58,470 nt of DNA from Gemmata sp. GTDB taxonomy: Bacteria > Planctomycetota > Planctomycetia > Gemmatales > Gemmataceae. The stretch lies in contig JANWYJ010000068.1 of the NCBI GenBank assembly GCA_025055115.1, positions 1 to 58,470 on the forward strand. Direction: 5' to 3'. The translations under genes were made by a program, and so were the position numbers. Shown here piece by piece: positions 1 to 54,275 of the stretch (position 1 is its first letter; the number at the start of each line of letters is the position of its first letter). The notes under the pieces were generated by a model. It was not told where the DNA came from and did no database searches. It worked only from the letters and a program-made list of their open reading frames with translations.

Positions 1-157
1 ATCACTGCGGAAGCGGCCAGCGGTGCTGCGGCCAACATAGGCGCAAGTTCTTATTTGCCAATGGCATACAACGCTTTATCACTGCGGAAGCGGCCAGCGG
101 TGCTGCGGCCAACATAGGCGCAAGTTCTTATTTGCCAATGGCATACAACGCTTTATC
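1..157. repeat. Tandem duplication, period 77, of a gene 3' end
   Basis: Positions 1-80 recur at 78-157 with no difference that I can see. The right copy contains the last codons and stop (128-130) of the PQQ-type gene; the left copy repeats these codons, the stop and the following downstream sequence. The left end is cut by the window, so more copies may exist. Confidence 0.95.
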
Positions 158-1339
158 CGTGCGAATGTACAGGCGGCGGTGGGCAATGGCCGGCGTGCCG
201 AGAGTTTCTTCGCCCAGTTCATTGACGGCGAGAATTTCGAACGTTTCGGCGGTCGCATCCACGACCGTGCAGATACCCGTTTCGTTCAAGAAGTACACTT
301 TGCCATCGCCGGCAACCGGTGAGGCCGAAAATGCTCCCTTGAGCCGTTCGCTGTAGAGTGTTTTGCCGGTTTTGGCATCGGCACACATGACGATGCCGTT
401 ATCGTTGGCCGCGAACACTTTGCCGCGGTATACCAGTGGCGATGGCATACCGGGGCGGACGTCTTTGGCCGTCAGGAGGGGTTTTTCTGCCACGCCGGTA
501 TCGGTCAGTTGGAAGGCGGTCACGCCGCCGATGGGCATGTACAATTTCTGGCCATCGAGGACTCCGGTGGGAATCGAACCGCGTGTCAGTTGGGACGACC
601 AGCGCTTCTGCCCGGTGGCGGCATCGTAGGCGGTCAGACCGCTGGGGCCGTCGAGGAGAATTTCCGTGGTGCTGCCGACGGTCCGCAGCAGCGGTGTCAC
701 CCAGTTGATCTCCCGGGGCCGTTCCACTTTCCACACGTTTTTGCCGTATTTCGTATCCAGTGCTGCCAGAAACGACGTGCCGGCGTTATCCATCGGGACG
801 ATGAGCCGATCGCCCACAAGCACCGGTGATGCGGCCATACCGACCTGATTGGTGATCCCGGGGTAATCGCCCACCAGCGACCGGTACCAGCGCAGGGTAC
901 CATCGTTGTCGAAGGCCGCACAATCGCCGCTGGCAAACAGAACATAGACCCCGGTGGCGTCGGCCACGGGGGTGTTGGCGGCCATGCAGGTTTTCTTGTG
1001 GGCCACGGTGCTGCCGGTGGCCTGGAGGGTCCGCTGCCACTGGAGCCGTCCGGTGTGGGCGTCGAAGCTGAGAATGTGCAGTTTATCGTCGCGGACACCT
1101 GAACTACAGGTGACGAAGACGCGATCGCCGTAGACGATGGGCGAAGATACGCCCCGGCCTGGCAGCGCGGCTTTCCATTTCAGCCCGGTGGTCTTGCTCC
1201 ACTCGGTTGGCAAGTTGTCGTCGGGTGAAATTCCAGTCGCGTTGGGTCCGCGGAATTGCGGCCACGGCTCCGCCAGCACCGGTGGAGTGCTAGTGAGCGT
1301 AAGCATGGCCACCAGAGCCACCATCAGGTTGGTTCGCAT
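128..1339 (-). CDS. Secreted PQQ-like (outer-membrane-protein-B type) beta-propeller protein
   Basis: A 403-residue protein with a signal peptide (hydrophobic residues about 5-20, cleavage near VLA-EP) followed by the EPWPQFRGP opening typical of planctomycete PQQ-repeat proteins. Repeats of the type Y-x-A-x-T-G-x2-x-W are visible through the chain (for example DAHTGRLQW and DAATGQKRW), which predicts an eight-bladed WD40-like propeller. Substrate and reaction cannot be told; many planctomycete members have no known enzyme activity. I chose the start at 1339 because GGAGG lies about 10 bases upstream and the signal peptide begins there. An open frame continues upstream only because the start region is duplicated. 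Its 3' end is also duplicated downstream. Confidence 0.85.
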   Translation of the reverse strand: MRTNLMVALVAMLTLTSTPPVLAEPWPQFRGPNATGISPDDNLPTEWSKTTGLKWKAALPGRGVSSPIVYGDRVFVTCSSGVRDDKLHILSFDAHTGRLQWQRTLQATGSTVAHKKTCMAANTPVADATGVYVLFASGDCAAFDNDGTLRWYRSLVGDYPGITNQVGMAASPVLVGDRLIVPMDNAGTSFLAALDTKYGKNVWKVERPREINWVTPLLRTVGSTTEILLDGPSGLTAYDAATGQKRWSSQLTRGSIPTGVLDGQKLYMPIGGVTAFQLTDTGVAEKPLLTAKDVRPGMPSPLVYRGKVFAANDNGIVMCADAKTGKTLYSERLKGAFSASPVAGDGKVYFLNETGICTVVDATAETFEILAVNELGEETLGTPAIAHRRLYIRTDKALYAIGK

Positions 1340-1418
1340 CACTGTTTTTCCTCCAGACGATCGTTTCTCCATCCCAGCTGATCGTATCCTGCACGCCATC
1401 AGGTTGGTTCGCATCACT
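1321..1418. repeat. Spaced direct duplication, offset 75, over the start codon of the PQQ gene
   Basis: A 23-nt block at 1321-1343, containing the ATG and first codons of the PQQ-type gene, is repeated exactly at 1396-1418. The 52 nt between the copies carries the GGAGG ribosome binding site of the downstream copy. Confidence 0.9.
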
Positions 1419-1446
1419 TCTTTGGTTCGCATCACTTCTTTGGTTC
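1405..1446. repeat. 18-bp tandem over a stop/start junction
   Basis: An 18-nt unit occurs 2.3 times (1405-1422, 1423-1440, then six more bases). Read on the minus strand it contains the stop TGA of the upstream gene merged with an ATG as TGATG, followed by the first codons of the PQQ-type gene. Confidence 0.9.
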
Positions 1447-2622
1447 CGAGGGGGCGAGAAAACCGAGGGGCACCCACTTTGTGCGACCTTCGACCAGGGC
1501 TTTCTGCTGCAGTGGCAGGGCACCGCCTGTCGCGTCGCAAAGGCGCATCTGGAAGAACCACGCTTGCGCCCAACTTTGGGTTTGGTTGTTCTGGCACACC
1601 TTCAGCACCACGACGTTTTCCCCCGGTCGGAGAGTCCCGCGACCGATGTAGGCATCGAAGGCCGCGCCGTGGTGGTATTCTTCGTGGGCCAGAAGTTCTT
1701 GGCCGTTGAGGAAAATTTTGATCGCCGTGGGGCTGGTGACGCGGATTTCGCAGGGTTGTTCCTGGGCGGTCTGAATGAACGCCAGGGCATAGGCGACGGC
1801 GTCTTTGTGTTTGCCCAACAATTCATTGAGATCGAACTTGCCGTATTTGTCGGTGGTGGCAGCCGGCGTCCATTGCACGTCGCCATCTTTCCCGCGGAAG
1901 GAGCCGGTGGTATCGCGGGCTTGCTCGGGGGGGTAGGCTTTGGCAAAGCCTGCACCGCCGGTGCTGTCGAAGGGGCCGATCAACCAGACGTGCGTGATAC
2001 AACCCAGGTGTTCACTGATGCGGACGCGGCCACCGTGTTCCTCGATCTTTCTGGCGATGGCTTCCACTTGATCTTTGTCGCGGGCATAGCTGAAGAGTTT
2101 TTCCAGCTCGGCGCGGATGCTGGGGCGGGCGGATTGTTCGAGAAGGTCCAGTTCCCGGGCGATGGCGGCGCGGCGCAATTCGGCGGCAGGGTCGTTCAAA
2201 CAGCCGGGCAGAAGCCGGTCTTTGGCGGTCGGATCGTGGCCGACGAGAAGTTCGTAAGCGTAGCGGCGGGCGGAGGGGGCAAAGCGGGTATTTTTCACGA
2301 ATTCTTCCAGTGACGCGGTGGGCAGCTTCTGCCCGGCGGCGAGATGGTTTTCCACAATGGCATCGACCGCCGTGCGGAGCCAGTTGGTCGCGGTCGGGTG
2401 GCGTTCGTCGAAGGCTTCCAAGGCGGGGAATAGGGCCGCAATCCCCTGTTGCACCAGTGTTTTCCACGCCGCTGCGGCATCCTCGTTACCCCGGCCTTCA
2501 GGGTTCACCGCCTTGAGTGTCGCAATCGCTCGCCGCGTATCGTCGTTGGCGGCGGCCGCAACCCACGACGCCGCCAGCACGAGGATGGCAGCCAGCCCCC
2601 AGCGGTCGTTCCTCCACAGCAT
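1432..2622 (-). CDS. Secreted protein with N-terminal helical region and C-terminal beta-sandwich
   Basis: A 396-residue protein of unknown function. It opens with a signal peptide (WGLAAILVLAASWVAAAA). Residues about 25-215 are alpha-helical with HEAT-like spacing. From about 225 a beta-rich domain follows, with GPFDSTGG, IKIFLNGQEL and LRPGENVVVLKV, a pattern seen in galactose-binding or GH2-type jelly rolls. Start at 2622 is preceded by GGGAG. The gene lies just upstream of the PQQ-type gene on the same strand and probably formed a coupled pair with it (TGATG at the junction, now duplicated), so the two may act together outside the cytoplasm. The domain assignment is inference from sequence pattern. 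Confidence 0.75.
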   Translation of the reverse strand: MLWRNDRWGLAAILVLAASWVAAAANDDTRRAIATLKAVNPEGRGNEDAAAAWKTLVQQGIAALFPALEAFDERHPTATNWLRTAVDAIVENHLAAGQKLPTASLEEFVKNTRFAPSARRYAYELLVGHDPTAKDRLLPGCLNDPAAELRRAAIARELDLLEQSARPSIRAELEKLFSYARDKDQVEAIARKIEEHGGRVRISEHLGCITHVWLIGPFDSTGGAGFAKAYPPEQARDTTGSFRGKDGDVQWTPAATTDKYGKFDLNELLGKHKDAVAYALAFIQTAQEQPCEIRVTSPTAIKIFLNGQELLAHEEYHHGAAFDAYIGRGTLRPGENVVVLKVCQNNQTQSWAQAWFFQMRLCDATGGALPLQQKALVEGRTKWVPLGFLAPSEPKK

Positions 2623-3028
2623 TGATCGTCTCCCATCAACACATGGCAAGGATCGTCGTGGCGCACATCCCCTGTTGCTGTGATCGGCAGGGAATGATTG
2701 CGTCCGACGATGGCACTTTCGCCCAAGTCCCAAGGCCATACTATCGCTGGGGGCGAAAACACCCAGAGAATTCTCCGGGCCAGCCGTGATCGCTTCACAA
2801 GGGCCACGCCGGACCACCGCGACCCATCCCCGAAAAAGGGGTACGGCCACGGCCCGCGGCTTCTGGCATTGGGGGGGGCGGCGCTGCGAGAATCAGGCCA
2901 GGGGGGCCGCTGCGCCTTGGAAAGGACAGAAACAACTGGGTCAGCCCCTTTCTGGCGGCGCTGCGAGAATCAGGCCCGGGGGGGCGGCGCTGCGAGAATC
3001 AGGCCCGGGGGCGGTGCTGCCGCGAGAA
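2623..3028. other. Intergenic region dominated by copies of the PSP1-like gene's 3' end
   Basis: About 400 nt without a believable gene. The right half (2878-3010) is filled with three duplicated copies of the end of the neighbouring PSP1-like gene. The left half is GC-rich and shows no clear promoter beyond the ribosome binding site of the gene ending at 1432. Confidence 0.7.
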
Positions 3029-3040
3029 TCAGGCCAGGGG
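2878..3040. repeat. Four copies of a 27-30 nt unit spanning a stop codon
   Basis: Copies at 2878-2904, 2955-2981, 2984-3010 and 3011-3040. Offsets are 77, 29 and 27 nt. The unit contains GAGAATCAGGCC; the stop codon of the PSP1-like gene (3029-3031) lies in the last copy, and every other copy retains the same stop. Copies differ at one to four positions. Confidence 0.9.
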
Positions 3041-3700
3041 GCGACGCTGCCGTGTAGCGGCTTCCATCTGCTGGCGTAATTGGGCGAAGTAGGCGGTCAG
3101 TTCGCTCGCTGAGCGCACTTGCCCGCGCGAGCAGGAGCCTGTGGAACACCCGCCGTGGTGGTTGGCGGATGACCCACACGACGAGCAGCCGGAGCCGGAC
3201 GAGCAGCCGGAGCCACACCCCGGCGTACCGCAGCGTTCCTCGGAAGGATGTTCGGCTGCGGTCGGCACTCGGGCGACATCCAACAAGCGCACCGGCCCGC
3301 CGAACTGCGTCGCCAGTTCATCCAACAAGGCGGTGGCATCACAGCTGTGCCAGGCCACACCGTGGAGGATCAGTTGATCGTCGAGTGTCACTTCGGCATC
3401 GACGAAGCAGAGGGGAAGTTGGTGGCGTTCAGCGGCGGCGTTGGCTTGGACCAGCCAGGCGTTGGCTTGTTCCGCCAATTGGCCGAGTTGAGTTTCATCC
3501 GCGGGACTGGCGCGGCGCAGGATTTCGCCATCGACACGGAGGGTGGTAGCGAAAGGTTCGCGAGCTTCGCACAAGACCGAGCCGATCTCCACACCCCGGC
3601 TGCTACGCAGCACCACGCGATCGCCCCGCACCAGAGGGACGCCCGACGTCAGCCGCCCGACGAAACCACAATGGCCGTATTGCACCAAGTAGGCGGACAT
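3029..3700 (-). CDS. PSP1-domain protein with Cys-rich tail
   Basis: A 223-residue protein. The first 145 residues match the PSP1/YaaT pattern: an RGDRVVLRSSRGVEIGSV block, then FVDAEVTLDDQLILHGVAW and LATQFGGPVRLLDV. YaaT in Bacillus works in a complex with YlbF/YmcA on RNase Y; whether that holds here is unknown. After the core comes a Gly/Ser/Cys-rich segment (CGTPGCGSGC and SGSGCSSCGSS), partly made by an in-frame 18-bp tandem at 3180-3215, which might bind metal. The start ATG shares its A with the stop TGA of the upstream TPR-YggX gene, so translation is probably coupled. A GTG one codon earlier is an alternative. The 3' end is repeated three more times downstream. Confidence 0.8.
   Translation of the reverse strand: MSAYLVQYGHCGFVGRLTSGVPLVRGDRVVLRSSRGVEIGSVLCEAREPFATTLRVDGEILRRASPADETQLGQLAEQANAWLVQANAAAERHQLPLCFVDAEVTLDDQLILHGVAWHSCDATALLDELATQFGGPVRLLDVARVPTAAEHPSEERCGTPGCGSGCSSGSGCSSCGSSANHHGGCSTGSCSRGQVRSASELTAYFAQLRQQMEAATRQRRPLA
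3180..3215. repeat. In-frame 18-bp tandem inside the PSP1-like gene
   Basis: Two copies (3180-3197 and 3198-3215) of an 18-nt unit with one difference, coding for a repeated Cys-Ser-Ser-Gly-Ser-Gly element. It is the one clear case of the short-tandem type that I found inside a reading frame. Confidence 0.85.
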
Positions 3701-5487: not shown

Positions 5488-5600
5488 CTCTCAATGCCGG
5501 ATCGGAGCCCCGAGGGATGCCCTGGCTGAGTCGCAGGCGATTGTGATGGCGTTGCATCAGATCTCTCAATGTCGGATCGGAGCCACGAGGGATGCCCTGG
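5488..5600. repeat. Spaced direct duplication, offset 75
   Basis: A 38-nt block at 5488-5525 is repeated at 5563-5600 with two differences, separated by 37 nt of unrelated sequence. Confidence 0.95.
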
Positions 5601-7320: not shown

Positions 7321-7429
7321 CCTGATTCAACAAACCGTATGGCTTTCCGCTCCCGGCTACAATCCAGCTTTGTGCATCGTTGAGAAGGCGCAGCCTGATT
7401 CAACAAACCGTATGGCTTTTCGCTCCCGG
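7321..7429. repeat. Spaced direct duplication, offset 73
   Basis: A 36-nt block at 7321-7356 is repeated at 7394-7429 with one difference, separated by 37 nt. It lies in the bS6-ssb spacer, on the 5' side of ssb. Confidence 0.95.
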
Positions 7430-15899: not shown

Positions 15900-16285
15900 T
15901 CAACGGGTCGGCCCCACCGGCCACACACCCCGCAAAATGGAGAATGATGGAACACACGCCCACGCGAGATGCCCTGAGCGGGCCAGCTCCGCCGGCAACA
16001 CAGTGGTTAGGATGTGGAGGGGAGGCCTGATCGCCACCGTCCTATCAGGGGGATGGGCCGGGCCGTGTTGAATTTCGGATGGGCCAGAGGCGCGTTGCAA
16101 ACGTGACGAGCGATCTGGTTGAACCTGATAGCGGCTGCAAGTGTTGAATTTCGGATGGGCCAGAGGCGCGTTGCAACGTGTCGTCGGCCAGCGCGAAGCC
16201 CGAGGGAACCACGGTCGACCCCGATCGCAACGATGCTGCCCCGCCGGAGATGCCCCGGTTCCAGGAAGCCCGGCAGAACCGCGGC
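15900..16285. other. Convergent intergenic region
   Basis: About 386 nt between the second DUF1501 gene and the convergent WD40 gene. Apart from the 36-nt spaced duplication I see no gene, RNA or clear terminator hairpin. Confidence 0.6.
16065..16176. repeat. Spaced direct duplication, offset 76
   Basis: A 36-nt block at 16065-16100 is exactly repeated at 16141-16176, separated by 40 nt of unrelated sequence. Confidence 0.97.
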
Positions 16286-17344: not shown

Positions 17345-17655
17345 CGGAATTCCCCACAAGCGACTATACCGCCGCCAGCCCCCGCACCCCATTCCCCCGA
17401 CGGCCCGAGGGACCCTGATGGAATGGTCTATCGTGTTCGCAAAATTTCCCTCGCACCACCCTTGTTCCCGCGACGGCCCGAGGGACCTGCCGGTCCTCCG
17501 TCCTCCGGAACGGGGAGCTCGAAGTCGCTCGCACCACCCTTGTTCCCGCGACGGCCCGAGGGACCGGTCCTCCGGTGGCCACAACGCGACCGTGACCCGC
17601 CCCACCACCATCGCTGAAGCGGGGGGGCGACATCCCCAGCCCACCGACTCGCCAC
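17345..17655. other. Intergenic region filled by a three-copy repeat
   Basis: About 310 nt between the CobW-type gene and the WD40 gene (both minus). Half of it consists of three copies of a CGACGGCCCGAGGGACC-containing block; no other feature seen. Confidence 0.7.
17398..17565. repeat. Three-copy spaced duplication, offsets 73 and 78
   Basis: A 38-nt block at 17450-17487 is exactly repeated at 17528-17565 (offset 78, spacer 40). Its last 17 nt also occur at 17398-17414, 73 nt further left. Confidence 0.95.
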
Positions 17656-29532: not shown

Positions 29533-29646
29533 GGATGAAACGGCAGCACGCACACCCCGGTTCGTATCCCCCTCAAAATAATCGGTCGGTGTCGGCATCT
29601 CTTGTACGGATGAAACGGCAGTACGCACACCCCGGTTCGTATCCCC
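29533..29646. repeat. Spaced direct duplication, offset 75
   Basis: A 39-nt block at 29533-29571 is repeated at 29608-29646 with one difference, separated by 36 nt. Confidence 0.97.
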
Positions 29647-50076: not shown

Positions 50077-50363
50077 CCCCCGGCCATCGCCATTGCGGCC
50101 GGTAGCCGTCGGGCCGACCTCCCCATCTGTGACGCCCCCCAGCCCTTGCCATCGCACGCGCCGGGGCGATAGGGATCGAGCCACTGTCCCAGCGCGGGGC
50201 CTTTTGCTGGAAATATCGTTGCCTTCGGGAAACAGCCGCGATGGAAATTGTGGAAGAGGTCGGAGAGCTTGGCACGAAGCGGTTATCCCTCCAGCCCATT
50301 CTCAAGGCCAGCCAGAGCCGCTAACCGCCAGAGCCTCTCAAGGCCGACCAGAGCCGCTAACCG
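50060..50363. other. Convergent intergenic region
   Basis: About 300 nt between two converging genes. It contains the 13-bp tandem after the molybdopterin gene and most of the three-copy 36-nt repeat from the cystathionine gamma-synthase end. No other feature seen. Confidence 0.6.
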
Positions 50364-50394
50364 CTAGAGCTTCTCAAGGCCAGCCAGAGCCGCT
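50301..50394. repeat. 36-nt tandem, 2.6 copies, over a stop codon
   Basis: Copies at 50301-50336 and 50337-50372 (four differences) and a 22-nt part at 50373-50394. The stop TAG of the cystathionine gamma-synthase gene (50364-50366) and its last codons lie in the right-hand copies. Confidence 0.92.
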
Positions 50395-51536
50395 TCGAGA
50401 TCCGCCCGCAAATCAGCGACATCTTCAATCCCCACACTCAGGCGAATCAGCCCATCATCCACGCCGCGTGCTTCCCGTACCTCCTTGGGAATGCTCGCGT
50501 GCGTCATCGTCGCGGGGTGGCACACCAGTGATTCCACACCCCCAAGACTTTCGGCCAGACTGAACAATTTCGTTCGCGTCAAAAATTGCCGCGCCGCGGG
50601 GATACCCCCGCGCAACTTCAGGGACACCATCCCCCCGAAGGTCCGCATCTGCCGGGCCGCGATGGCGTGGCCAGGATGATCTGGCAACCCAGGATAGTAC
50701 ACCTGGGCCACCGCGGGATGCCGGACGAGCCACTCCGCCAGAGCCGAAGCGTTCTCACAATGCCGATCCATCCGCACGGCCAGTGTTTTCAAGCCGCGCA
50801 GAACCAGGTACGCATCAAATGGCCCCGGAACCCCCCCCGCGGCGTTCTGGTAGAACTTGATCGGTTCAAGTAAGTCTTTGGCGCCGATCACACAGCCGCC
50901 GATCACGTCGGAATGGCCGCCGAGGTACTTCGTGGTACTGTGTACGACCAGATCGGCCCCCAATTTCAGCGGTTGTTGAAGATACGGTGAGGCGAAGGTG
51001 TTATCGACCACCAGTTTGGCTCCGCGGTCGTGGGCTAGCTGGGCAATCGCGGCAATGTCGAGGATTTGCAACAGCGGATTGGTGGGAGTTTCGATCCACA
51101 CCAGTTTGGTTTGGGGCGACATCACTTGCGCGAAGCCGGCGGGGGAAGCATTCTCGGTGTATCGCGTGGCCAGCCCCCAGGGCTTGAACACCCTCTCCAA
51201 CAACCGGAAAGTACCACCGTACATATCGGCCGAGGCGACTACCTCATCGCCTGGTCGCAGCAGGGCGCTGAAGACCGCGGTGGTCGCCGCCAGGCCGGAG
51301 GCGAAGGCCAAGCCGCGTTCGCCTTCTTCCAAAGCGGCCAGAGCCGTTTCCAAGGCCGTTCGGGTGGGATTGCCACTGCGGCTGTACTCGTAGCCTTTGT
51401 GCTGGCCGGGGGCCGTTTGCGTGTATGTACTGGTGGCGTAAATGGGTACGACCGTAGCCCCGGTGGCCGGGTCGGCGTCTTGCCCGGCGTGGATGGCACG
51501 CGTGCTGAAGCCGTGCCGGTATTCACTGGCCATCAT
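50364..51536 (-). CDS. Cystathionine gamma-synthase / gamma-lyase family PLP enzyme
   Basis: A 390-residue PLP enzyme of the Cys/Met metabolism family. The YSRSGNPTR block (51-59), GLAFASGLAATT, and the PLP Lys in VVHSTTKYLGGHSD (K203) are all present, as are IETPTNPLL and the C-terminal SLAESLGGVESLVCHPATMTHAS pattern. Such enzymes form cystathionine from an O-acylhomoserine or cleave it; sequence alone does not decide MetB or MetC/CTH. Start ATG-ATG has AAGGGA upstream; the second ATG is also possible. It is divergent from the zinc/manganese ABC gene pair. The 3' end is triplicated in the 36-nt repeat. Confidence 0.94.
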   Translation of the reverse strand: MMASEYRHGFSTRAIHAGQDADPATGATVVPIYATSTYTQTAPGQHKGYEYSRSGNPTRTALETALAALEEGERGLAFASGLAATTAVFSALLRPGDEVVASADMYGGTFRLLERVFKPWGLATRYTENASPAGFAQVMSPQTKLVWIETPTNPLLQILDIAAIAQLAHDRGAKLVVDNTFASPYLQQPLKLGADLVVHSTTKYLGGHSDVIGGCVIGAKDLLEPIKFYQNAAGGVPGPFDAYLVLRGLKTLAVRMDRHCENASALAEWLVRHPAVAQVYYPGLPDHPGHAIAARQMRTFGGMVSLKLRGGIPAARQFLTRTKLFSLAESLGGVESLVCHPATMTHASIPKEVREARGVDDGLIRLSVGIEDVADLRADLEAALAGLEKL

Positions 51537-51555: not shown

Positions 51556-51669
51556 GCCATTTCGGCGATACAGCATCCTGACGCCGCCCCACAGTGTAGA
51601 TCACTGAGAGCAAACCACCAAACATAAGGCCATTTCGGCGCTGCAGCGTGCTGACGCTGGCACACAGTG
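51556..51669. repeat. Degenerate spaced duplication, offset 73
   Basis: The block at 51556-51596 resembles 51629-51669, with a 12-nt identical start (GCCATTTCGGCG) and about eight differences over 41 nt. It appears to be an older event of the same kind. Confidence 0.75.
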
Positions 51670-53868: not shown

Positions 53869-53981
53869 ACTTCCACTTCCAGCGCGTGGCCCACCGTCTG
53901 GTTGCCGTCGAGAGGGCAAGAATTTTAGTGCCGAAAGAGCTAACTTCCACTTCCAGCGCGTGGCCCACCGTCTGGTTGCCG
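53869..53981. repeat. Spaced direct duplication, offset 74
   Basis: A 39-nt block at 53869-53907 is exactly repeated at 53943-53981, separated by 35 nt. Confidence 0.97.
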
Positions 53982-54006
53982 GGATGGGCACGACCACGAC
54001 GGCCTT

Positions 54007-54036
54007 CTCCCTCCAGCGCAACTCCCTCCAGCGCAA
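54007..54036. repeat. 15-bp perfect tandem
   Basis: CTCCCTCCAGCGCAA at 54007-54021 and 54022-54036. Confidence 0.95.
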
Positions 54037-54162
54037 CCGATGAGAGCGTGTCTGGATTCGGATGCCGCGAAGCCGTTGTGGCGGGTTGGGTGTCACCAAC
54101 GGACTGACACAGAAAAACGGCCACCAACCGTTGCCGAGCAGCCCTGGATAAACGTTTGCCGT

Positions 54163-54275
54163 CACCGACGGAGGCGCCTGGAGAAGCAGAGGGGAAAACA
54201 CTCGGAGGGAAGGATTAACGATTTCCACCAAGTCTGCACCGACGGAGGCGCCCGGGGAAGCAGAGGGGAAAACAC
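54163..54275. repeat. Spaced direct duplication, offset 74
   Basis: A 39-nt block at 54163-54201 is repeated at 54237-54275 with two differences, separated by 35 nt. Confidence 0.97.

Follow-up and report, generated by a model that had tools for sequence, protein, structure and literature searches.

The window analysed here is 58,470 nt long and makes up the whole of one contig (C54) of a 4.93-Mb draft genome in 100 contigs. Close to its beginning, two genes lie one behind the other on the minus strand (Table 1). The product of the upstream gene matched no Pfam family, and relatives of this protein were found in 55 of the 59 genomes searched, its own genome counted. The downstream gene is likely to start at GTG 1342 or ATG 1339, as judged from the sequence. 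The stop codon of the upstream gene reads TGATG, and GTGATG when it is read from 1435. The sequence GTGATGCGAACC is found at this old junction, a second time 18 nt on (region of ATG 1416-1414, with the ATG at 1414), and a third time 75 nt beyond the second copy, at ATG 1339 and GTG 1342. The original prediction that TGATG stands at 1432-1434 and again 18 nt later was thus confirmed to the letter on the minus strand. A GGAGG motif at 1354-1350 lies 7 nt ahead of GTG 1342 and 10 nt ahead of ATG 1339. Both steps, of 18 nt and of 75 nt, are divisible by 3, and a reading frame runs open from the old start into the downstream gene (ORF 128-1597). No promoters or terminators were predicted in 1300-1500, and no Rfam elements in the whole window.

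Table 1. Features of the junction and repeat-insert-repeat (R-S-R) loci of the window
Feature	Coordinates	Strand	Remarks
Downstream gene, PQQ_2/BamB-type beta-propeller	128..1342	-	PF13360, E 2.6e-30; signal-peptide-like start
Copy 2 of R	1321..1357	-	Exact part 1321-1343; holds GGAGG 1354-1350 and GTG 1342 / ATG 1339
Inserted spacer-like DNA (S)	1358..1395	.	Probably 38 nt; 1344-1395 on the exact repeat alone
Copy 1 of the target repeat (R)	1396..1450	-	Exact part 1396-1418; full length probably 37 nt, plus the 18-bp tandem; CC ahead on the minus strand
18-bp tandem duplication	1404..1446	.	Perfect, 2.4 copies; 7-bp microhomology GAACCAA
Relic of the ancestral 4-nt overlap GTGA	1432..1435	-	GTG 1435-1433 was the start, TGA 1434-1432 is the stop; no GGAGG-like motif ahead any longer
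Upstream gene	1432..2622	-	396 aa with ATG 2622 as the start; TGA 1434-1432 as the stop
R-S-R locus	5488..5600	.	R 38, S 37, period 75
R-S-R locus	7321..7429	.	R 36, S 37, period 73
R-S-R locus, undecayed	16065..16176	.	R 36 without mismatch, S 40, period 76; CC just outside R
R-S-R locus with a partial third R	17374..17565	.	Periods 73 and 78; looks like two hits
R-S-R locus	29533..29646	.	R 39, S 36, period 75
R-S-R locus, decayed	51556..51669	.	R 41 with 7 mismatches, period 73
Two adjoining R-S-R loci (53869, 54163)	53869..54275	.	Each R 39, S 35, period 74

Overlap of the two genes in the genus

The two genes overlap by 4 nt in all 16 congeners with a readable junction, as GTGA in 15 and as ATGA in one. 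Two of the 18 congeners were left out of this count, one being cut at a contig end (G015) and the other being without a full ortholog (G018). In all 16, the downstream gene has an open frame that leads into a signal-peptide-like start, and 15 of them carry GGAGG or AGGAG 7-8 nt before the overlapping start, within the last codons of the upstream gene. The longer form GTGATG of the present genome was found in one congener only (G013, locus L018). An extra 93 nt between the genes was seen in this genome alone when it was compared with the 16 readable congeners. Because every readable congener has the overlap and the 93 nt occur only here, the ancestral state within the genus is the overlap, with the 93 nt being peculiar to this genome among them. 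Beyond the genus such overlaps are uncommon, an open one being found at 2 of the 13 more distant loci (L020-L031 and L034, with L033 not counted since it coincides with L027).

The comparison of junctions in relatives, which the original prediction had asked for, bore out its view that the genes once overlapped, the overlap being present and the long spacer being found in none of the 16. The ancestral TGATG overlap that it had proposed holds as an overlap, with the correction that the old start is the GTG of a 4-nt GTGA overlap (ATGA in one congener). Overlaps of the ATGA and GTGA kind in operons allow translational coupling. The ancestral arrangement in the 16 readable congeners is of this kind, and the present genome differs from it in that the overlap appears to have been lost through an insertion with target duplication.

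A direct repeat around inserted DNA

The 75-nt step consists of an exact direct repeat of 23 nt (1321-1343 identical to 1396-1418) around 52 nt that are not shared; what is present twice at this step is the 23-nt repeat only and not all 75 nt. In five Markov-2 shuffles of the window, exact repeats of at least 14 nt within 400 nt were absent. The 75-nt step had been taken for a duplication, and the repeat is indeed real; 23 nt doubled around an unrelated 52 nt are, however, the mark of an insertion that doubles its target site. A plain 75-bp tandem duplication was rejected because the 52 nt between the repeats are without a second copy.

Allowing for decay, the unit at the junction would consist of a target repeat R of ~37 nt and an insert S of ~38 nt. 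With R taken as 37 nt, copy 1 reads CTCGGAACC...CTGATGG on the minus strand with CC ahead of it, and copy 2 reads TCTGGAGG...CTGATGG. We infer this length of R rather than read it off because the left parts of the copies agree at 7 of 15 positions only. The CC at this locus is found at the inferred end of R only and is absent at the end of the exact repeat. In the frame of the upstream gene, the left part of copy 2 encodes LEEKQ and a stop, most relatives have KEEKK and a stop, and copy 1 has SEPKK. Copy 2 resembles a duplicate of the ancestral junction in which the Shine-Dalgarno sequence was kept, and copy 1, required for nothing but the end of the upstream gene, resembles one in which it was lost. 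The GGAGG of copy 2 was probably inherited and not new, since a motif of this kind precedes the overlapping start by 7-8 nt in 15 of the 16 congeners and the old site here is without one. The earlier idea of a new stretch with its own GGAGG therefore stands as regards the presence of the motif at 1354-1350 and probably fails as regards its novelty.

The 219-base junction, when searched in its own genome, was found at its own place only. An origin of the insert elsewhere in the genome was rejected, only weak matches (E 0.49 or worse) being obtained beyond the locus itself, and an origin in known phages or plasmids was rejected as the phage and plasmid searches gave no match.

Loci of the same form across the genome

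A survey of the window showed many differing direct-repeat pairs with 72-78 nt from start to start, and 1.12 Mb was therefore read, comprising the window and 60 further stretches (L042-L061 and L102-L141), which is 23% of the genome. The mismatch-tolerant scan of this sample gave 345 independent local repeats, 139 of them tandem and 206 gapped. Ectopic gapped loci with a period of 70-78 nt numbered 106, or ~95 per Mb, and the 9-nt bins 43-51, 52-60, 61-69, 79-87, 88-96 and 97-105 held 6, 8, 5, 10, 6 and 4 gapped loci, respectively. The same tolerant method found 0 segments in one Markov-3 control of the 1.12 Mb. By extrapolation, the whole genome would hold roughly 465 such loci. Two array-like places, with one locus in L059 and two in L138, were excluded from the count of 106. 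The junction locus is also not among the 106, because it is masked by its overlap with the stronger 18-bp tandem; it was itself seen in the window survey of exact repeats.

The 106 loci have a median R of 36 and a median S of 38. Among the 41 fresh loci (at most 1 mismatch, R of at least 30), R was 35-38 in 24 and S was 35-41 in 32, and many R pairs in the sample differ by several bases. The shared repeat expected of a genuine CRISPR array was not found, as R differs among the 58 loci compared, the L138 array apart. When 99 loci (those of the 100 inserts described below, minus the one of L059) were placed by a simple gene call, 68 were intergenic, 28 lay at a gene edge and 3 inside genes, compared with 13%, 11% and 76%, respectively, for random stretches. 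The loci thus lie mostly outside genes, which is the pattern that selection would leave of widespread insertion. The periods outside genes fell into the three classes modulo 3 as 33, 33 and 30, and protein repeats were rejected as the cause of the period because no preference for multiples of 3 was seen there. An artefact of assembly or binning might be suspected in a draft genome of 100 contigs with a 77-bp repeat at the contig start of the window (1-157); against it, the loci are spread over 45 of the 61 pieces of the sample, many R pairs have diverged and genes are avoided, and we regard such an artefact as extremely unlikely.

The source of the inserts was examined with 100 of them, taken from loci with a period of 68-80 and R of 27-47; three are array spacers. 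Pairwise comparison among these 100 gave no match beyond 11 nt at the threshold used. Searched in the 1.12 Mb (23% of the genome), 2 of the 100 had a strong self match. One insert combines 25 nt from the native CRISPR repeat with the 4 bases next to them, across a spacer-repeat border and with 1 mismatch; another matches 31 nt of a chromosomal stretch with 1 mismatch. Three inserts of the window gave no phage match, and one of these three gave no plasmid match. By eye, WRNDR is encoded both by the insert at the junction and by the start of the upstream gene.

Native CRISPR-cas genes and the preferred site of insertion

The genome has two cas1 loci, on contigs C86 and C95, and both come with cas2. 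The C86 locus carries a Cas4-Cas1 fusion (NCBIfam cas4g_cas1g) and cas2, and the C95 locus a Cas1 with Cas2 at the contig end. The array beside the C95 pair has the repeat GTCTCAGACGTGCCCGGCCCTTCGGGGCCATTGAAAC (R 37, S 36, period 73) with GGCC ahead, and at up to 3 mismatches this repeat occurs only twice in the genome, both times at C95. The C95 Cas1 aligns with a solved Cas1 across the conserved core, and the alignment takes in the expected Glu, His and Asp. At E 1e-40 or better, 5 of 294 genomes of the phylum, the present one included, contain a match to this Cas1. The ectopic units come near the native C95 unit in size (median R 36 vs 37, median S 38 vs 36). Of the two cas1 loci, the C95 pair is the one more likely to be responsible for the insertions. 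In the 20 kb around the C86 cas genes, no array of more than two spaced repeats was found, and one R-S-R locus lies at ~9534. The Cas4-Cas1 fusion and cas2 of C86 (L058 1904-7471) adjoin a HerA-like ATPase. On C20, near the contig end, L138 13960-14215 holds four identical 36-nt repeats, CTCTCCACGGCTTCACCGCCGTGGCCGAATTGAAGC, and three spacers, with CGCC ahead of the repeats on the strand read; these repeats represent a second native array or, alternatively, an ectopic locus grown larger. RAMP-family genes (PF03787), as in a type III effector, were seen elsewhere in the genome, on C49 (92112-98326) and C80 (1614-2198).

The sequence next to R was then compared between loci and background positions. 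CC stands directly outside R, at either end, in 41 of 69 loci compared with 468 of 3000 random intergenic positions (Fisher p ~4e-16), and outside 35 of 218 repeats beyond the period class. These counts use R of 33-40 only, and an earlier 42 of 72 still included the two loci of L138. By the end on the plus strand, CC was found at one end in 34 of 72 and at the other in 18 of 72. R mostly begins with G or C. The wider match to the native junction CC/GTCTCAG is only slightly raised, with a mean of 4.68 vs 4.09 of 9 positions.

Short tandem duplications

Tandem duplications numbered 139 in the 1.12 Mb, 111 of them with a period of 15-31, as against 6 in 800 kb of the closest relative, G017. Of the 137 examined, 78 reach only 0-2 nt past two full copies, and inside genes 23 of 26 have periods that are multiples of 3. 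Because short tandems are in excess yet lack the CC signature, a second process is also active in this genome. The 18-bp tandem of the junction, which the original prediction had named, is present and perfect at 1404-1446 and is an event separate from the insertion. It is found in copy 1 only and probably came later, and the order first proposed, with the 18-bp tandem preceding the 75-nt step, is more likely to be the reverse of what happened.

The whole junction could alternatively have arisen by two ordinary slippage duplications, an 18-bp tandem followed by a 75-bp tandem whose spacer part has diverged. The reality of the 18-bp tandem with its 7-bp microhomology, and the excess of short tandems over G017, fit this account. 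It is less easily reconciled with 23 nt doubled perfectly while the 52 nt between are without an adjoining second copy, it does not predict ~100 loci sharing one period, an R of about 36 and an S of about 38, and the loci of the period class carry a site motif that the other repeats are without. Slippage as the origin of the junction is thus considered highly improbable.

A perfect 77-bp tandem lies at window 1-157, at the contig start and over the end of the PQQ-type gene, and may be an assembly artefact. At window 2872-3052 and 50300-50407, tandem copies of 29/30 nt or 36 nt occur together with a step of 77 or 72 nt, which looks like the work of both duplication processes.

Relatives as controls

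In G017, loci with a period of 70-78 numbered 0 in 400 kb and 2 in 800 kb. G017 has one Cas1, in a 576-codon frame, and the loci are nearly absent from it despite a Cas1 of its own. A clean empty site was found in G017 for L044:10796, with a single R and no S. Three further G017 sites (for window 5488 and 7321 and for L116:15777) showed no insert-sized match, but were too diverged for a clean reading. Of the 100 loci, 26 were comparable by virtue of surroundings matched in the 800 kb, and none of the 26 showed in G017 the 70-78 nt excess expected of a shared insert. Sixteen short congener loci (62.8 kb) held no locus with a period of 70-78.

Genomes other than G017 were sampled at only 67-200 kb each. 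In the period class 70-78, five loci of G012 belong to its own array and three more are candidates; G136 had two, both in an array at the start of a contig, and G008 had two cases of period 72 that look by eye like leucine-rich repeats; the samples of G002, G016, G026 and G325 gave none. Isolated pairs with periods of 73-78 were seen in G012 (L094:15308, L094:18437 and L168:15185) and in G017 (L170:10487 and L186:14008), and are possibly rare ectopic integrations.

Probable off-target spacer integration and known systems

We think it probable that the junction was split by an off-target spacer integration of Cas1-Cas2, in which ~38 nt were inserted and the target was doubled. The starting state would have been the ancestral GTGA overlap, presumably with translational coupling. 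The Cas1-Cas2 integrase would have put ~38 nt of unrelated DNA into this junction, with the target being duplicated because the two strands were attacked ~37 nt apart. The duplicated target would have comprised the ribosome-binding site, the overlapping stop and start, and the first codons. With the stop of copy 1 left to the upstream gene, and the Shine-Dalgarno sequence and start of copy 2 to the downstream gene, both genes would retain a complete signal through the target duplication. The same reaction would have left ~100 other marks in the 1.12 Mb, mostly between genes. These spacer-sized loci suggest a CRISPR integrase that inserts DNA across the chromosome, and we infer Cas1-Cas2 to be the agent of the insertions.

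A different integrase or transposase, adding fragments of fixed size with a target duplication of ~36 nt, would leave similar traces, as the signature itself is that of staggered integration and it is the size, the motif and one CRISPR-derived insert that speak for Cas1-Cas2. The inserts share no sequence, though, and without a common sequence they are not a mobile element carrying its own ends; moreover, R 37 and S 36 are the unit of the genome's own array. We know of no transposase with target duplications so long, and consider such an enzyme a very unlikely source. Starting from integration by Cas1-Cas2, we tentatively extend the reading to the lineage, in which the integrase might have lost its site specificity and now be a major insertional mutagen, its several hundred inserts having remodelled intergenic regions and operon junctions and some loci perhaps having become new arrays; this extension is conceivable, and we would not yet call it probable.

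Nivala, Shipman and Church are said to have described in 2018 a non-canonical spacer integration by Cas1-Cas2 in E. coli, giving a new repeat-spacer-repeat locus outside the array, and ectopic spacer acquisition within arrays has reportedly been seen at CRISPR3 of S. thermophilus. As far as these accounts go, the CRISPR3 case resembles the present loci in the insertion away from the leader end and differs in lying within arrays at true repeats, whereas the E. coli case shares with them both the spacer outside an array and the new repeat-spacer-repeat locus. In the portion of the literature consulted, off-target integration in E. coli is cited with Cas1-Cas2 overexpressed (PMC11788318), in contrast to the present natural genome with inherited loci at ~95 per Mb, many of them decayed and shaping a gene junction. 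In vitro, the type II-A Cas1-Cas2 of S. thermophilus has off-target sites that are similar to its leader-repeat junction, with a preference for G at the base attacked (PMC6895254). The CC before R and the first base G or C in the present genome, as at native arrays, are in line with this; there, the targets were plasmids and the products likely half-site ones, whereas here the insertions are completed, chromosomal and of another CRISPR type. In further papers, the use of repeat-like sites outside arrays in vitro is reviewed (PMC8047081), the avoidance of off-target integration is discussed for Sulfolobus (PMC9456107) and off-target events are called frequent for type V-C Cas1 (PMC13034035).

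Off-target integration by Cas1-Cas2 is thus known, and what appears to be new is a natural chromosome with ~95 loci per Mb; our literature search, which most subscription journals lay outside, recognised no report of a natural chromosome with such loci at this density. If true, a natural genome of this kind means that off-target integration can be a real evolutionary force, that its site preference and cost become measurable, and that the birth of new CRISPR arrays could be studied in one genome. In genomes of this kind, 'CRISPRs' with two repeats may be something other than arrays or noise. The target duplication, by copying a stop/start overlap together with the ribosome-binding site, would also offer a route from an overlapping pair to two genes with separate signals.

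Translation start of the downstream gene

The GGAGG 7 nt ahead of GTG 1342 reproduces the ancestral spacing, which makes initiation at copy 2 likely. Translation of the downstream gene is thus likely to start at 1342/1339, and its coupling to the upstream gene has probably been weakened. Alternatively, the genes might still be coupled through the old GTG 1435 or ATG 1432, as the frame open from 1435 would allow a coupled product with 31 extra residues before the signal peptide. The open frame from 1435 through 1339, and the length of both insertions in multiples of 3, would suit such a product. The old site, however, is without a GGAGG-like motif, while copy 2 has one at the ancestral 7 nt from the GTG, and a signal peptide preceded by 31 extra residues is unusual; continued use of the old start is thus regarded as unlikely. 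As the periods outside genes show no bias to multiples of 3, the 75 nt of the present step may be in frame by chance.
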